Source: Gemmatimonadota bacterium (GTDB lineage Bacteria; GCA-2686955). From it: DNA of 8,712 bases. The notes under the pieces were generated by a model that saw only the letters and a list, made by a program, of their open reading frames with translations, made no database searches and was not told the DNA's origin. The stretch spans positions 1-8,712 of the forward strand of contig NYZA01000191.1 of assembly GCA_002686955.1 (NCBI GenBank). Reading direction: 5' to 3'. Positions 1 through 8,712 of this stretch are shown here, one piece after another. How positions within the stretch are numbered: position 1 is the stretch's first letter; each line of letters opens with the position of its first letter. The position numbers and the translations under genes were made by a program.

Positions 1-78
1 GCCATGGCGGGCAGCTCGGTGCTGGTCGTCACCAATTCCCTACGCCTTCGAACAATGGCTATCTCTTAGGAAAAAACC
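1..78. other. Leader region of htpG; possible tail of an upstream gene
   Basis: This short stretch precedes the htpG start. A purine-rich TTAGG-AAAAAA segment (66-76) ends just before the GTG and supplies a modest ribosome-binding site. Two plus-strand frames enter from the window edge and stay open, one ending at TAG 67-69 and the other at TGA 80-82. Either could be the tail of an upstream gene, but 22-26 codons are too few to decide. No convincing sigma-70 or heat-shock promoter is visible. Confidence 0.3.
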
Positions 79-2022
79 GTGAGCAGCAACACATTCGAGT
101 TTCAGGCCGAGGTCAGACAACTTCTCGACCTCATGGTGCATTCGCTCTACAGCCACAAGGACGTCTTCTTGCGCGAGCTGATCTCCAACGCCAGCGATGC
201 GATCGACAAGCGACGCTTCGAGGGATTGACCGATGCGTCGATGGCCGCTGCGGGGGATCCGGAGATCGTTCTGGAGCGTGATCCCGAGGCGCGTACGCTC
301 ACGATTCGCGACAACGGAATCGGTATGAGTCGCGACGAGGTGATGGAGAATATCGGTACGATCGCCCGCTCCGGCACGCAGGAGTTCCTCGCGCGCGCGC
401 GTGAGCTGAAGCAAGACAACCCCGATCCGGAGCTGATCGGCCAGTTCGGTGTCGGTTTCTACTCAGCCTTCATGGTCGCCGACCGGGTCGACCTCGAAAC
501 GCGCCGAGCGGGTGAGGAGACGGCCACGCGCTGGATCTCGACCGGAGACGGCAGCTACACCCTTTCGGACGCGGAGCGCGATGATGCCGGCACCACGATT
601 ACCCTTCACCTCAGAGCGGCCGATGAAGAGGATGGGCTGCAGGATTACACCGAGGAGTGGGTGGTCCGCGAGATCGTGAAGAAGTTCTCCGATTTCGTCG
701 CCTATCCGATCCGTATGAAGGTGGAGCGGACCGAGCAGGAGAAGGACGCCGACGGGAATATCGTCGAGGGCGGCGCCGAGATCCAGCGGGAGCAGGTCGA
801 CACACTCAATTCGATGAAGGCGATCTGGAGGCGTCCCAAAGATGATGTCTCCGAGGAGGAGTACTCGGAGTTCTATAAGCATATCTGCCACGACTGGAGC
901 GATCCGCTCCTCCATCTGACGTCGAAGATGGAGGGGGCTTTCGAGGCGAGCGCGCTTCTCTTCGTACCCTCCACCTCACCCTTCGACCTGCACCATCCCG
1001 AGATGTCGAGAAAGGGCCTGCAGCTCTATGTGAAGCGGGTCTTCATCATGGATGAGTGTCGCGATCTCATGCCCGACTACCTGCGCTTCATACGCGGTGT
1101 GATCGACGCCGAAGATGTGTCGCTCAACATCTCTCGCGAAATGCTGCAGAAGGACCGGCAGATCCAGGCGATCCAGAAGCATCTCACGAAGAAGGTACTC
1201 GACACGTTGGTCGATCTCCACAAGGACGATCCCGAGAAATACCGCACCTTCTGGGGTGAATTCGGCCCGGTCCTCAAAGAGGGTTTGATGGCGTTTGGAG
1301 ATCGCCAGGAACGGATTCTCGATCTGGTGCTCGCCGCCTCCACGAACGACGAGAAGGAGCTGACGTCGCTCGATCAATACATCGAAAGGATGAAGGAGGA
1401 TCAAGACGCGGTCTACTACATGACCGGCACATCGAGAGAGGCGGTGTTGCAGTCACCGCATATCGAGGCTTTTCGGGAGAAGGGCTACGAAGTGCTGCTG
1501 CTAACCGATCGGGTCGACGAAGTGTGGCTCGGACGCCCCCAGGAGTACAAAGAGAAGAAGCTCCAGTCGATCGGTCATGGCGAAGTGGATCTGGGTAGCG
1601 ACGAGGAGAAGGAGGAGACGAAGAAGGAGCTCGAGGAGAAGAAGACCGAGTTCACGACCCTGCTCGAGAAGCTTCAGTCGGTGCTCGATGAGCGGGTGAA
1701 GGAGGTTCGACTCTCGACCCGCCTCACCTCATCGGCGGCCTGCCTGGTCGGCGATACGGGCGACCTGAGCCCTCAACTCGAGGCGATGATGCGGGAATCG
1801 GGGCAGAAGATCCCCTCGATGAAGCGGATCCTGGAGCTGAATCCCGATCATGCGGTGCTGGCAAAGCTGCGCGGCCGCTTCGACGAAAACCCCGAGGACG
1901 AGTCGATCACCGAGTTCGCGGAGCTGCTCTACGGCCAGGCGGTCCTGGCGGAGGGCGCGGAGCTCGAGGATCCCGCTGGGTTCAGCAAGCGGGTGGCGGA
2001 TTTGATGACGAAGGCTATTTGA
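79..2022 (+). CDS. htpG: Chaperone protein HtpG (bacterial Hsp90)
   Basis: This is the ATP-dependent Hsp90 chaperone, a cytosolic homodimer that remodels client proteins, usually together with DnaK. The protein is 647 residues, slightly longer than the roughly 620-630 typical of bacterial HtpG. The N-terminal GHKL ATPase domain (about 1-215) shows the catalytic Glu33 and Asn37 in RELISNASDA, the nucleotide-binding Asp78 and glycines in DNGIGM (78-83), and the lid/glycine motif GQFGVGFYSAFM (121-132). A short charged linker (about 216-235) follows, in place of the long eukaryotic one. The middle domain carries the catalytic arginine loop LNISREMLQ with Arg353. A Glu/Lys-rich helix (about 508-530) leads into the C-terminal dimerisation domain, which ends in a helix without the eukaryotic MEEVD tail. 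The start is GTG at 79, preceded by AGG at 68-70; the protein aligns with HtpG from this residue. It converges with the outer-membrane gene 7 bases beyond its stop. The gene looks intact. Confidence 0.97.
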   Translation: MSSNTFEFQAEVRQLLDLMVHSLYSHKDVFLRELISNASDAIDKRRFEGLTDASMAAAGDPEIVLERDPEARTLTIRDNGIGMSRDEVMENIGTIARSGTQEFLARARELKQDNPDPELIGQFGVGFYSAFMVADRVDLETRRAGEETATRWISTGDGSYTLSDAERDDAGTTITLHLRAADEEDGLQDYTEEWVVREIVKKFSDFVAYPIRMKVERTEQEKDADGNIVEGGAEIQREQVDTLNSMKAIWRRPKDDVSEEEYSEFYKHICHDWSDPLLHLTSKMEGAFEASALLFVPSTSPFDLHHPEMSRKGLQLYVKRVFIMDECRDLMPDYLRFIRGVIDAEDVSLNISREMLQKDRQIQAIQKHLTKKVLDTLVDLHKDDPEKYRTFWGEFGPVLKEGLMAFGDRQERILDLVLAASTNDEKELTSLDQYIERMKEDQDAVYYMTGTSREAVLQSPHIEAFREKGYEVLLLTDRVDEVWLGRPQEYKEKKLQSIGHGEVDLGSDEEKEETKKELEEKKTEFTTLLEKLQSVLDERVKEVRLSTRLTSSAACLVGDTGDLSPQLEAMMRESGQKIPSMKRILELNPDHAVLAKLRGRFDENPEDESITEFAELLYGQAVLAEGAELEDPAGFSKRVADLMTKAI

Positions 2023-2029
2023 GGGGGGC

Positions 2030-3364
2030 CTACGCCCCAAACCGCAACCCCAAAGCCACAATCGTATACGAGGTCTCATAAGTCCCGCGCGTATCGGGCG
2101 CGGGCTCGAGATCACCGATTCCCAGATAGTCCGGCCGGTTGTCGGTCTCGTCCACCACGACGTCGGGCTGGAAATAGTGCATGCCGGAAAGATCGACGGT
2201 CCAGCCACGGCCCAGTCCGTAGGAGAAGCCGCCGCTCACACCGTATCGCTCGGGCGATTGGCCCACGAAGAAGTTCTCGGTCTTGACCGAACTGCTCTCG
2301 TAGAGCCCGCCGAACCGCCATCCCAGGTGCCCCGGATCGGCCTCGTGGCGCACGCCGAATCGGATCGAGTAGGCGTCCTTGTAGTCGTAAGTGAGCGTCG
2401 TGACGCCGAGTGTGTCGTCCAGACCTTCCACGATGATCTGGTCGGGGGTAACGATCAGGGTGTCGGTGTTGCTCCAATTCTCGAAGACGCCGGCCACTTC
2501 GACCCAAGTGCTCTCGCCGACGCGATGCGCGAGCCCACAGCGCGCGATGTCGGCCAGCTCGAGCTCGTACTCGCCCGCGTCGCCGTCGACCGAGATCCCG
2601 GCCATGTTCATGAACTGCGGCAGGTCGATGGCGAGCTCGATGTCGCCGTCGATGCTGGTCGGGCTCTGATAGGAAAGGCCGAGGCGCCAGGTCTCGGCGG
2701 GCACCCAAGTCAGTCCAAGGTTCCAGGTCCAAGAGAGATTGGCGGAGCGGCCGACGATATAGGCGTCGCCCGCCTCGTGCGGCAGGGTCATCGCTTTGAA
2801 CTCGGCATTCACGCCCTGGGGCGCAAGCTGGGCGCCGCCTCCGAAGCGAAACGCACCCCACCTCCTCGCCAGCGCCGCACCGATCCAGGCGGTGTAGCTC
2901 TGGTCGCTGATGATCGTGTATCGGGTGGGGCCGTCCTCGTCGTAGGCGAAGCGGCCCTTGTACGGTCCCCAGGCGCCCAGGCCGAAAGCCCAGTCCCCCG
3001 CCCCATGAGCCCCGAAGAAAGCCGGTACCTGGAAGAGCCCCGCCTCGTTCTCGGCCAAAGGGTAGTCGATCGAGAACTCCTGGTTGGGAAGCTCGAAGAG
3101 CCAGGTGTCGGTTGCCCTCTTGAATGTGTGAGGGCTGTGAATGAAGGCCACGTCGATCGCCAGATGCCGTCCCTCCGGGAGATCGGAGAGATTCGCGGGG
3201 TTGTACCAGATGGCCAGGGGATCGATTCCGCTCGCCACGTACGCGCCGCCCGACCCGAGGGCGGGTGTGCCGATGGCGGGAACGAACATGCCGGCCGCGA
3301 GAGCGTGATGAAGCGGCGCGGTGAGGGCGAAGGCCACGAGGAAGGGCTTGGCGCGAGGGGGCAT
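2030..3364 (-). CDS. FadL/OmpP1/TodX-family outer-membrane transport protein
   Basis: This is a predicted 14-stranded outer-membrane beta-barrel of the FadL type; family members import long-chain fatty acids or aromatic hydrocarbons by diffusion. The 444-residue length is normal for the family. Residues 1-24 form a Sec signal peptide (basic start, hydrophobic core, probable cleavage after the ALA or AA near 23-24). The mature N-terminus has the family signature: GTPALGSGGAYVA (32-44), then DPLAIWYNPANLSDL with the conserved Asn-Pro-Ala at 55-57. The rest alternates short aromatic and hydrophobic strands with acidic loops, and the protein ends in a final strand (VALGLRFGA). The ATG at 3364 has an excellent AAGGAG site (3370-3375) five bases upstream. 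It lies 85 bases downstream of the DUF255 gene on the same strand, so read-through is possible. Family membership is well supported; the substrate cannot be told from sequence, so no gene symbol is given. Confidence 0.85.
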   Translation of the reverse strand: MPPRAKPFLVAFALTAPLHHALAAGMFVPAIGTPALGSGGAYVASGIDPLAIWYNPANLSDLPEGRHLAIDVAFIHSPHTFKRATDTWLFELPNQEFSIDYPLAENEAGLFQVPAFFGAHGAGDWAFGLGAWGPYKGRFAYDEDGPTRYTIISDQSYTAWIGAALARRWGAFRFGGGAQLAPQGVNAEFKAMTLPHEAGDAYIVGRSANLSWTWNLGLTWVPAETWRLGLSYQSPTSIDGDIELAIDLPQFMNMAGISVDGDAGEYELELADIARCGLAHRVGESTWVEVAGVFENWSNTDTLIVTPDQIIVEGLDDTLGVTTLTYDYKDAYSIRFGVRHEADPGHLGWRFGGLYESSSVKTENFFVGQSPERYGVSGGFSYGLGRGWTVDLSGMHYFQPDVVVDETDNRPDYLGIGDLEPAPDTRGTYETSYTIVALGLRFGA

Positions 3365-3369
3365 CGGGG

Positions 3370-3375
3370 CTCCTT
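3370..3375 (-). promoter_or_regulatory. Strong Shine-Dalgarno site of the FadL-type gene
   Basis: On the minus strand the sequence reads AAGGAG, followed by five bases and the ATG at 3364. It fixes the start that begins the signal peptide. The rest of the 3365-3449 gap holds only an imperfect GC-rich inverted repeat near 3436-3449, just past the DUF255 stop, and no obvious promoter. Confidence 0.75.
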
Positions 3376-3449
3376 TTTCCGAGGGCTCGAAACGAAGAGC
3401 CGGGAGGATAGCCCAGACGCACGTCGCTGTAGGAGCGCGTCGATGCGCG

Positions 3450-5738
<2,289 letters not shown>

Positions 5739-5742
5739 GGAT

Positions 5743-5748
5743 TCTCCC
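5743..5748 (-). promoter_or_regulatory. Shine-Dalgarno site that sets the DUF255 start
   Basis: The minus strand reads GGGAGA then ATCC then GTG (5738). The spacing of about five bases from GGGAG favours this GTG over the TTG at 5780, which has no ribosome-binding site and would add residues encoded by the palindromic DNA at 5758-5776. Confidence 0.7.
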
Positions 5749-5757
5749 GGTGCATTC

Positions 5758-5776
5758 GCCGACCCTAAGGGTCGGC
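5758..5776. repeat. 19-bp perfect palindrome at the left end of the element
   Basis: GCCGACCCTAAGGGTCGGC is self-complementary around a central A. Its right half (from 5769) is the left terminal repeat of the 179-bp element; its left half (GCCGACCCTAA, 5758-5768) is an exact copy of the element's right end plus flank (5940-5950). It lies 20 bases upstream of the DUF255 GTG and could also fold in that gene's leader RNA. Confidence 0.8.
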
Positions 5777-5947
5777 GCAAGAATAACTTGTCATCTTCGC
5801 GCCCATATGTGCCGCAGATCTAGCCGATCGGCAAGCCCCGAAACCGGAGGAATAGTCGGGCTATTTTGAGGGTTTCGGGGCTTGCCGATCGGCCGGAGAT
5901 GTCGTGCAGATGGGATGCCAAATGGCAAGTTATTATTGTGCCGACCC
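5769..5947. mobile_element. 179-bp palindromic MITE-like element with TAA duplication
   Basis: The whole segment is one inverted repeat centred on 5858. Two 77-base arms align without any gap; by hand count about 59 of 77 positions match. The outer 22 bases match at 20 (GGGTCGGC then C-A-A, AATAACTTG), the middle 32 are diverged (16 matches), and the inner 23 (5823-5845 against 5871-5893) are perfect. Each inner arm begins or ends with the 10-base palindrome GCCGATCGGC. The 25-base centre contains a further AATAG/CTATT pair (5851-5855, 5861-5865). The element is flanked by TAA at 5766-5768 and 5948-5950, consistent with a 3-base target duplication. No transposase or convincing reading frame lies inside. 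These are the hallmarks of a miniature inverted-repeat element mobilised in trans; TNA-type duplications occur in some IS5-family groups, but I cannot assign a parent. An alternative is a fixed long hairpin acting at the RNA level between two same-strand genes. Confidence 0.7.
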
Positions 5948-6174
5948 TAAAGCGTGTCGATACGCGATGGCTCCGTCTGGGGCGGTGTCGGCTCGGCGAG
6001 CTGAGGCTCCCCATCGAACTTCCAGTCGGGAAAGCGCTGGCGCAGGCGCTTCATGAACACCTTCGCGCTGAAATCGCGAAAGAGGAACACCCTTTCTTCG
6101 GTCTCGCCGTCGAGCGTTCGCCGCCCCTGAATCTTGTAGAGGTTGTTCTGGCTGGCCAAGGCGTGTCTCTCCAC
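5947..6174 (-). CDS. Small protein of unknown function (75 residues)
   Basis: I do not recognise this protein. It is 75 residues, soluble-looking, with mixed strand and helix character: NLYKIQGRRTL, then TEERVFLFRDF, an amphipathic stretch SAKVFMKRLRQRFPDWKF, and a Pro-rich acidic tail. The composition looks like real coding sequence. The start is uncertain. GTG at 6174 has little upstream support, whereas a TTG at 6159 (giving 70 residues, starting with ASQNNLYKIQ after the initiator) has GGAGAG about seven bases upstream. The TAG stop (5949-5947) sits on the boundary of the palindromic element: T and A come from the flanking TAA and G is the first base of the element. With one TAA copy removed, the inferred empty site would still read TAG, so the insertion need not have truncated the gene. 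Confidence 0.5.
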   Translation of the reverse strand: MERHALASQNNLYKIQGRRTLDGETEERVFLFRDFSAKVFMKRLRQRFPDWKFDGEPQLAEPTPPQTEPSRIDTL

Positions 6175-6404
6175 GTACTCAACGGTCGGTTGGCACGGAG
6201 GACCATAACAGGATCAAATCGGTCCCCGGTCCAGTTTCCCGCTCTCTTGCCGATGAAAAAGGCAGCGAATTGCCGCCCAGTCTGGTATCTGGAGCAAAAC
6301 TCAATGGCCTGGCTCTACCGTATCTTCCTCGCGTCCCTGGCAACCTGGATCGTGCTCTCGGCGAGGACCGGCGAAGGGATCTGGCCCGGGTAGAGCCGGC
6401 GAGA
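6175..6404. other. Intergenic stretch between two small minus-strand genes
   Basis: This 230-base region separates the 75-residue gene from the Imm-like gene. Apart from a possible 29-codon plus-strand frame (6304-6393) I see no gene, no clear terminator hairpin with a T run, and no strong promoter. The base composition in 6240-6310 is less GC-rich than in its neighbours. Confidence 0.4.
6304..6393 (+). CDS. Possible 29-residue single-helix membrane peptide
   Basis: An ATG at 6304, nine bases after GGAG (within TCTGGAGC), opens a 29-codon frame ending at TAG 6391-6393. The peptide begins MAWLYRIFLASLATWIVLSA and finishes RTGEGIWPG, so residues 2-19 could form one transmembrane helix with a short charged tail. 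It is antisense to nothing and fills most of the gap before the Imm-like gene. No homology is recognised. A frame this short can arise by chance, so this is a candidate only. Confidence 0.25.
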   Translation: MAWLYRIFLASLATWIVLSARTGEGIWPG

Positions 6405-6635
6405 TCAGAGGCTGCTCTTCACCCCCGCGAATCCGACCCGCCGCGCGGTGACCACAGCCGGACGAAGCGACCACCACAGGGCCATGCCCCAGCCCGCAAG
6501 TGTCCAGCCCACGAGCGCATTGACCATCACGATCTTCGTGGACCGCGGGTGCACGCGGAAAAGCGCCACGAGTGAGGGGGTCAAGTAGATCCCCAAAACA
6601 ACTCCGAAAAGCAGCTGGATCGCTTGTTGGGACAT
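6405..6635 (-). CDS. Superinfection immunity (Imm) family membrane protein
   Basis: This 76-residue protein matches the layout of the Imm superinfection-immunity family, named after phage T4 Imm, which blocks DNA entry of a second phage. Chromosomal members are common and mostly uncharacterised. Residues about 6-26 form a first hydrophobic helix (LLFGVVLGIYLTPSLVALF), followed by a short basic loop RVHPRSTK (27-34), then a second helix (35-57) with the family's Gly-Trp pattern, LVGWTLAGWGMALWWSL. The tail is basic. The ATG is at 6635; the upstream GGCGAGAG is only a partial ribosome-binding site. It is divergent from the 126-residue gene with 100 bases between their starts. The family assignment rests on the two-helix layout and the LVGWT...GW motif, and the actual role here, phage exclusion or otherwise, is not shown. 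Confidence 0.7.
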   Translation of the reverse strand: MSQQAIQLLFGVVLGIYLTPSLVALFRVHPRSTKIVMVNALVGWTLAGWGMALWWSLRPAVVTARRVGFAGVKSSL

Positions 6636-6735
6636 GGGACTCTCGCCAATCCGACGGCCGGGGGGGCGCGACGGGGTCTACTCCATCGATCGGATCGAAT
6701 CATCGGTGCGATCCAGCCAATGATAAGCTCTGTCC

Positions 6736-7116
6736 GTGTCTCATGCACCCTCCCAGGCCCTTCTCGCGGAACTGCGCGCACTCTCAGACCTCTTGCGGAC
6801 CCCGGAGGGCGACTGCGTCCGCCCCTCGCCGCCCCTCGTGGCCGCCCTCTCCGCATTCGAGGCGAAGGCGCGCGAGTGGATCCGCTCGATCGAAGCCGCC
6901 GAAACCGAAAAGCGCTTCCTCGGGGCCCATCCCCGCGCCCGGCACTACGCCGATGAGCTCAGAGGCGACCGGGAGCGCCTACTCACCGAAATCGGCGACC
7001 GGATCGCGCAGACGCGCGAGGGAAACCCCGATCACACGCGCATCGCCGACCTGATCCGGGCGTGGACCCACCACGTGGAGTCGATCGCCCGGATCGAGGC
7101 CAGAGCTTCTAACTGA
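6736..7116 (+). CDS. Helical protein of unknown function (126 residues)
   Basis: I do not recognise this protein. It is 126 residues, soluble, rich in Ala, Arg and Glu, and predicted almost entirely helical: heptad-like stretches run from about 6-20, 33-58, 70-92 and 98-123, consistent with a small helical bundle or short coiled coil. There is no signal peptide or membrane segment. The GTG start (6736) has no Shine-Dalgarno site. A TGATAA box at 6721-6726 lies ten bases upstream, so the transcript could be nearly leaderless if that is a -10 element, but no good -35 is visible. The stop codon overlaps the end of the convergent dehydrogenase gene by 8 bases (7109-7116). Coding is supported by length and by the lack of a better frame here; function is open. 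Confidence 0.6.
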   Translation: MSHAPSQALLAELRALSDLLRTPEGDCVRPSPPLVAALSAFEAKAREWIRSIEAAETEKRFLGAHPRARHYADELRGDRERLLTEIGDRIAQTREGNPDHTRIADLIRAWTHHVESIARIEARASN

Positions 7117-8230
7117 GCCGCCTCACGATCGCCTCGCCAACCTCGGTCGTCGTGGCGCCGCCACCCATATCGTAGGTTCGCGCGTCGCCCTCGCGAATCA
7201 CACGCGCGATCGCCGTCTCGAGACGTCGCGCCCGGTCGTCTTCACCGAGCCAATCGAGCATCAGCTTCGTTGTGAGCAGCATCGCCATCGGGTTGACTTT
7301 GTTCTGCCCCGTGTATTTCGGCGCCGATCCATGCGTCGGCTCGAAAACAGCGTAGCGATCGCCAATATTCCCGCTCGCGGCGAAGCCCAGTCCCCCGACG
7401 AGCTGTGCACACAGATCGGAAATAATGTCGCCAAACATATTTCCGGCGACAAGAACACCGTACTGCTGCGGGTTCTTGACCAGCCACATGCACATAGCGT
7501 CGATATTCGCCTCCCACAGATCGATCCCGGGGTAGTCGCGCGCAACCTTACGCGCCGTGCGCACCATCAGCCCCGAAGTCTCCCGCAACACATTCGGCTT
7601 CTCGACCACCGTCACGGTCTTGTAACCATGGGTCTTCGCATACTCGAAAGCCTGCGTGGCTATGCTCCTCGCGCCGTTGCGCGTGATAATGCGCGTCGAC
7701 ATCGCGATATCATCGAGAGGGACATCGCCGAAACGACGCATTTTCGGGTGGTTGCGCGTGAGCACGTCCATCAGTTCGGCGGGGAGGGGATGGAATTCGA
7801 TGCCGACATAGAGCCCTTCGGTGTTCTCGCGAAACACAACGAGATCGATGTCGTCACGAAGATTGAGCGGATTCCCATCGAACGCCTTGCAGGGACGAAG
7901 ATTGGTGTGCAGATTGAACTCCTGCCGCAACCGCACGATCGGGCTCGAATAGACCAGCCCCGAGTCTTTCAGCTCGGGAATCAGCGCCTCCTGAGCCTCC
8001 TCCTTCGGCATCGAAGTGATGGCGCCGAAGAGGGCGCAATCGGTGTTGCGCAACAGTTCGAGCGTACGCTCCGGCAGCGGATTCCCCTCGGTCCTCCAGA
8101 ACTCCCACCCGATATCTCCGTGGGGGTACTCCGCGTCGAATTCGAGCGCGTCGAGCACACTACGCGCGATGTTCATGACGTCGATGCCGATGCCATCGCC
8201 AGGCAGCCAGGCGATCTTGTACTGAGCCAT
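7109..8230 (-). CDS. Isocitrate/isopropylmalate-family dehydrogenase
   Basis: This is a 373-residue beta-decarboxylating dehydrogenase that oxidises a (2R,3S)-hydroxy di- or tricarboxylate with Mg2+ and NAD(P)+. The N-terminus WLPGDGIGIDV (8-18) is typical. Substrate and catalytic residues by comparison with E. coli isocitrate dehydrogenase are Arg102, Arg112, Arg134 (FRENTEGLY), Tyr141, Lys211 and the metal-binding Asp244, Asp268 and Asp272 (GDIISD). The cofactor loop HGSAPKYTGQNKVNP (300-314) has Lys305, Tyr306 and Val312, equal to the NADP-selecting K344/Y345/V351 of the E. coli enzyme; Tyr353 also fits Y391, but R395 is replaced by Gly. The substrate helix SSPIVRLR (95-102) resembles homoisocitrate dehydrogenases more than E. 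coli Icd. So the exact substrate (isocitrate, homoisocitrate or isopropylmalate) stays open. The start is the ATG at 8230, with GGAG (8236-8239) five bases upstream; an upstream ATG at 8359 would add a 43-residue non-homologous leader. No leuCD-like partners are present. Confidence 0.92.
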   Translation of the reverse strand: MAQYKIAWLPGDGIGIDVMNIARSVLDALEFDAEYPHGDIGWEFWRTEGNPLPERTLELLRNTDCALFGAITSMPKEEAQEALIPELKDSGLVYSSPIVRLRQEFNLHTNLRPCKAFDGNPLNLRDDIDLVVFRENTEGLYVGIEFHPLPAELMDVLTRNHPKMRRFGDVPLDDIAMSTRIITRNGARSIATQAFEYAKTHGYKTVTVVEKPNVLRETSGLMVRTARKVARDYPGIDLWEANIDAMCMWLVKNPQQYGVLVAGNMFGDIISDLCAQLVGGLGFAASGNIGDRYAVFEPTHGSAPKYTGQNKVNPMAMLLTTKLMLDWLGEDDRARRLETAIARVIREGDARTYDMGGGATTTEVGEAIVRRLS

Positions 8231-8471
8231 TTCTACTCCGGTGGGTGGATGAGCCGATGACCTCCGAGAATCCCAGCAACAACCCTGCAGCAGGTTACCA
8301 GAATCGAACCGGGCGGGGAGGCTCGTGGATTCCAACCCCGCGCCGGGCGGGCGGGGCATCGCGTTCGGGGATGCGGAGCCACGGGGCGTGCCTGGCTGCG
8401 AATGGCGGAGGCCGGCGGGTCAATGCTCGGTCTCCCCCCCCTCCTTCGTCCTCCATGTCGATCGATGCCCC
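8231..8471. other. Leader of the dehydrogenase gene; no gene seen
   Basis: The GGAG ribosome-binding site (8236-8239, minus strand) is the only element I can support. The region is GC-rich with an eight-C run at 8434-8441. A T-arm-like box lies at 8301-8310 but does not belong to a complete tRNA fold. The minus-strand promoter for the dehydrogenase should lie here, but no clear -10/-35 pair stands out. Confidence 0.4.
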
Positions 8472-8705
8472 GTGTCGAAACGCCAGGGCGAAGCGCGGTT
8501 CGGGTGGCGGATGCTGGTATGAGTTGCTGTGGGACTCGATGGGCGCCGAAAGCTGTATGATCTCGTCACCGATCCGGAAGACGCTCGGCTACGTGAGCTA
8601 GCCCGCATTTCTCACCAACTTTCGTCGCGAGGCGGCGCAGATTCGTGCCCTGGCAGCACTTCCCCCCGTTTCGCGCGGAGGCGTGCTGGTTGCACGTCGC
8701 ACTAA
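8472..8705 (+). pseudogene. Possible decayed sulfatase C-terminus
   Basis: One plus-strand frame reads GEARFGWRMLV, then TGA at 8520-8522, then VAVGLDGRRKLYDLVTDPED, continuing ARLRELARIS and ending at TAA 8703-8705. The W-R-x-L-V strand followed by GRRKLYDLVTDPED matches the usual C-terminal ending of type I sulfatases (tryptophan-lysine/arginine-leucine strand, then ELYDL..DP.E). The in-frame TGA, the absence of any upstream catalytic C-x-P-x-R sequence in the window and the unrelated low-complexity DNA before 8472 suggest a remnant. An alternative explanation, two one-base frameshifts joining YELLWDSMGAE to KLYDL, is less economical. The match is short, so confidence is modest. Confidence 0.35.
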
Positions 8706-8712
8706 GCGAAAC

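Follow-up and report, generated by a model that had tools for sequence, protein, structure and literature searches.

A palindromic MITE with ISAzo13-type ends in a Gemmatimonadota genome

A long near-palindrome flanked by TAA is found close to the start of a gene in a contig of a Gemmatimonadota bacterium (GenBank assembly GCA_002686955.1, contig NYZA01000191.1, positions 1–8,712; this whole stretch of 8,712 nucleotides is referred to as the window). Its form raises the question of whether it is mobile DNA, a structured RNA or a repeat fixed between genes and, if it is mobile, which enzyme moved it. The home assembly, from which the window is taken, comprises 4.28 Mb in 270 contigs and is 84.5% complete.

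The element, its copies and its insertion marks

Inspection of the sequence places the near-palindrome at window positions 5769–5947 (179 bp, centre 5858), with TAA on either side (Table 1). The arms pair around the centre without gaps, with two mismatches in the terminal ~22 bases and none in the inner 23, and they are diverged in their middle part, so that both the full-length palindrome and the nested arrangement of its conserved segments, as given in a preliminary description of this DNA, are confirmed. The predicted fold reaches −125 kcal/mol on the plus strand and −107.5 kcal/mol on the minus strand. The open frames that overlap the element are either short or extend beyond it on one side or the other, and there is no transposase gene inside. 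Its neighbours are the start of a minus-strand gene, named DUF255 in the preliminary description and, judging by its sequence, by its frame likely to begin near 5738, and a small minus-strand frame ending at 5947. A promoter and terminator scan of the element yielded a single promoter-like match, on the minus strand and running into the right end, and no terminator. Elsewhere in the window, positions 6405–6635 (minus strand) encode a small Imm_superinfect-family protein (PF14373, E 1.3e-11).

Table 1. Features of the palindromic element and its immediate flanks (window coordinates)
Feature	Position	Strand	Evidence
9-bp inverted copy of the element's first 9 bases, CGCCGACCC, adjoining the left duplication (CGCCGACCC-TAA-GGGTCGGCG)	5757–5765	−	sequence
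Left target-site duplication TAA, 3 bp	5766–5768		sequence and flank statistics of full copies
Left terminal inverted repeat GGGTCGGCGCAAGAATAACTTG; family consensus GGGTYCGCGCAAGAATAACTTG	5769–5790	+	genome pattern count, copy alignment
Left-arm middle, imperfect pairing with right arm; same arm mismatches in nearly all copies	5791–5822		column identity 0.94
Core stem, left side, 23 bp perfect	5823–5845		self-complementarity, consensus fold, paired changes
Hairpin apex: short stem and loop	5846–5870		consensus fold, 30 copies
Core stem, right side	5871–5893		self-complementarity, consensus fold, paired changes
Right-arm middle	5894–5925		copy alignment, column identity
Right terminal inverted repeat	5926–5947	−	sequence, genome pattern count, copy alignment
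Right target-site duplication TAA, 3 bp	5948–5950		sequence and flank statistics of full copies

The element belongs to a large family in its home genome. At a tolerance of two mismatches, the end pattern AGGGTYSGCGCAAGAAT was matched 164 times, compared with two matches for the reversed control, and a stricter end pattern gave 113 matches and none for its control. Forty of 134 candidate places were scored, and each matched strongly, at 78–93% identity and in most cases over the full length. An element model returned ~30 matches in an unbiased sample of 60 contigs (787 kb), of which roughly one in three was near full length; extrapolation from these sampled stretches suggests well over a hundred elements genome-wide, perhaps 60 of them full length. 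This copy number within one genome rules out a chance palindrome. In shorter forms, of 98, 86–88 and 40 bp, nested deletions have removed parts of the palindrome and left the ends intact. Contig ends carry several copies, as expected because repeats break assemblies. The copies have diverged (mean identity 84%, closest pair 96%), and none of those compared were identical, which leaves recent movement without support.

Exact 3-bp duplications flank 18 of the 31 full copies, against a mean of 5.3 and a maximum of 13 in 5000 trials with shuffled pairing, and only one copy has identical 4-bp flanks. The duplicated triplets are TAA, TTA, TCA, AAA, ATA and TGA, and the target preference leans to C-TNA-G. 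The preliminary description had suggested a search for multiple TNA-flanked copies in the host genome, and the 164 ends and the duplications bear out its MITE reading. It had also suggested a search for empty sites, and these were found for another copy, L028, which interrupts a second repeat family; several uninterrupted members of that family span the junction and carry the three bases only once (L167:11978–12090 and L212:7584–7631, each with a single TTA there). For the window's own insertion site, the nearest relative has 42% identity at the neighbouring protein and is too distant for comparison. The second repeat family, ~110 bp long, is also found in the home genome at L233:9325–9437 and L240:11764–11859, and has been hit by one MITE insertion.

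The 3-bp duplications and the empty sites together define the element as mobile DNA by the usual criteria. With dispersed copies that have defined ends, terminal inverted repeats, a duplication of fixed length, a size below 500 bp and no transposase gene, the window element is a MITE, as originally suspected. In the left flanks of three copies (the window copy, L003 and L030), an inverted terminal-repeat fragment lies directly across the target duplication in an end-TNA-end arrangement, which would fit either elements that adjoin one another or the loss of an older copy by deletion.

Candidate parent of the family

The preliminary description had left the family unrecognised, and the comparison of termini refines this: the ends are ISAzo13-type ends. 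Sequence evidence makes ISAzo13 (PF07592) the best-supported parent of the window's MITE family, and we infer with high confidence that an ISAzo13-family DDE transposase mobilised the MITE in trans.

The 17-bp end is present in genomes of many phyla, often as pairs 152–274 bp apart, and PF07592 genes occur in 8 of 34 genomes that carry it. In a Bryobacterales MAG, a pair of ends 1416 bp apart encloses a degenerate ISAzo13-like gene (L046:5639–7054); in a Dehalococcoidia MAG (L099), the end lies directly upstream of an ISAzo13 gene; and intact PF07592 genes with matching ends on both sides are found in MAGs of Fermentibacteria, Nitrospirae and Acidobacteria (L138, L139 and L140). When the regions downstream of 18 ISAzo13 gene ends were scored with a weight matrix built on the MITE end, at least 11 exceeded the 99th percentile of background, with matches mostly 32–54 bp past the ISAzo13 domain and adjoining TTA, TAA or CTA. 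The length of the duplication is also that reported for ISAzo13, 3 bp (PMC10045372).

A complete IS with the same terminal repeat, for which the preliminary description had suggested a search, is represented by the PF07592 genes of other MAGs, whereas the home genome holds one broken PF07592 fragment. No terminal ends were found near this fragment, and in the 84.5%-complete home assembly none of the ISAzo13 sequence is an intact element bounded by such ends. A transposase of the IS4/IS5 type (PF01609) was rejected as parent, as the genome gave no more than two matches to it, both partial.

The following course of events is proposed. An ISAzo13 enzyme would bind the ~22-bp ends (GGGTYCGCGCAAGAATAACTTG) and place the element in TNA-type targets, with C-TNA-G favoured, each insertion creating a 3-bp duplication. 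In this way a palindromic master copy would have spread to well over a hundred places, and later internal deletions at the palindrome may have produced the 98-, 88- and 40-bp forms. With the transposase of the home genome now missing or fragmentary, the copies can probably no longer move, unless the unassembled part holds a source.

Hairpin conservation and competing explanations

The strong pairing of ends and core had been read in the preliminary description as a sign of selection on both segments. Conservation between copies does not bear this out: when 30 full copies are aligned one way, column identity is highest in the middle (0.94), compared with 0.89 at the ends and 0.89–0.91 in the core. 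The arm mismatches in the middle are common to nearly all copies and hence ancestral, and the nested pattern was therefore inherited from the master copy.

A different kind of constraint would apply if the repeat were a structured RNA or a regulatory repeat, its hairpin selected in each copy and its mobility secondary. We consider this unlikely, although the stem itself offers several points in its favour. Stem pairs changed on both sides number 29, against a shuffled mean of 13.7; this excess could reflect selection or template-switch correction of imperfect palindromes, the latter being a known mutational process. Double-stranded DNA does not tell G-T from A-C mismatches, whereas a folded single strand does. 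With stem pairs chosen without regard to strand, 42 inferred changes in the inner stem lead to G-T on a fixed strand and 14 to A-C mismatches, the corresponding counts in the outer stem being 26 and 26. The inner-stem preference on one strand may point to a folded RNA or to mutation with a strand bias, and since C-to-T changes exceed G-to-A changes also in the few unpaired columns, mutation of the latter kind may account for it. The same strand folds better in 30 of 30 copies, and in 22 of 22 members of a cross-phylum family of 157-bp elements described below, although in both sets the copies share ancestry. On the other hand, no consistent orientation relative to neighbouring genes was seen with a crude gene caller, no Rfam match reached its gathering score, and the hallmarks of insertion, namely 3-bp duplications and empty sites, are clear. 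The Rfam mraW RNA (RF01746) matches the minus strand weakly at 5794–5918 (35 bits; gathering score 50), which is most likely a long-hairpin coincidence. Acido-Lenti-1 was likewise set aside, as it is close to, but outside, one related element; at that locus two such RNAs (RF01687) lie inverted at L083:1088–1133 (minus strand) and 1234–1279 (plus strand), and a MITE that has the ends described here is ~450 bp away.

Much less probable is that the window element is a MITE of a Transposase_29 (PF21804) IS, which adjoins the same terminal repeat in the home genome. Four home-genome loci join GGGTYCRCGCAAGAATRAC to a PF21804 element, one copy of which has an open frame of 607 amino acids, and this parentage looks convincing at first sight. 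It is largely refuted by the ends of the IS and by its insertion into MITEs. In other genomes, the termini of PF21804 elements are repeats of the TTCAGRRCTCCTGA type that lack the GGGTCCGCGC part, so that their ends do not in general match those of the MITE. In contig C108, the IS is flanked by the MITE inner arm (ATGACAAG) on one side and by the MITE end (GTTATTCTTGCGTGGACCC) on the other; as these are two parts of one MITE arm, the PF21804 IS was inserted into the MITE and is not its parent. The IS was located at C108:63536–65218 (L252), C99 (L253), C102 (L254/L228) and C22 (L255). Its ends are TTCAGACCTCCTGATCTCGG, it includes a helix-turn-helix ORF, and the ORF junction carries an A8 run. 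It adjoins the MITE at the same base every time (AATRAC^TTCAG or ATGACAAG^TTCAG), which suggests that it targets one preferred point of the MITE site-specifically.

Least credible is a fixed, non-mobile intergenic repeat of the REP/ERIC kind, spread by recombination and not by transposition: divergent copies, with their mean identity of 84%, and the failure to find an intact transposase with these ends in the home assembly would fit it, but the exact 3-bp duplications at 18 of 31 copies, the defined ends and the empty sites refute it. A MITE with an ISAzo13 parent is the reading we retain.

Distribution and relation to known systems

The full 185-bp stretch, duplications included, was not found in the 59 relatives searched. 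The stricter end pattern has no match in the sole genome searched from the same family and at least one in 8 of 290 genomes, with many in two besides the home genome (G182 and G183). This patchy occurrence resembles that of elements that move horizontally.

Palindromic elements of 157 bp with the same ends occur in MAGs of Acidobacteria, Nitrospinota, Nitrospirae and Planctomycetota (L062, L068, L070, L080, L086, L112, L120, L123, L124 and others). They share with the window family the TNA flanks, the long hairpin and the better fold on one strand, and differ from it in their interior sequence. We regard with similar doubt to the RNA reading above its wider form, that ISAzo13-type palindromic MITEs constitute a cross-phylum class in which a transcript of one strand would be functional for the element (stability, transposition control) or for the host, with pairing kept by selection and not only by inheritance.

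These results give a probable parent family to a MITE first noticed by eye in a single window. Short palindromic passengers bearing ISAzo13-type ends occur in several bacterial phyla, which seems to be unreported: no earlier report of an ISAzo13-derived MITE was found in the open literature, including the review PMC10969869, subscription journals and ISfinder lying outside the search. The sequence GGGYYCGCGCAAGAATAACTT adjoining TNA offers a search handle for annotating such repeats, and the preference for G-T on one strand is a specific hint, open to testing, that constraint acts at the RNA level.

The window element resembles ISAzo13 (PF07592) in its terminal sequence GGGYYCGCGCAAGAATAACTT, in its TNA-type flanks and in the 3-bp duplication (PMC10045372). 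ISAzo13 elements, however, measure ~1.4–2 kb and contain a transposase gene, whereas the window element has 179 bp and no such gene, its interior being a palindrome with no recognisable remnant of the ISAzo13 gene. Among prokaryotic MITEs, such as Correia, ERIC, QMITE and Chunjie (reviewed in PMC10969869), it finds its likeness in being short and multi-copy, with terminal inverted repeats, direct repeats, a mostly intergenic location and size variants. In a comparison that leaves aside the ends of the Geobacter MITE Chunjie, the window family differs from these systems in its nearly complete palindrome and in its ISAzo13-type ends.
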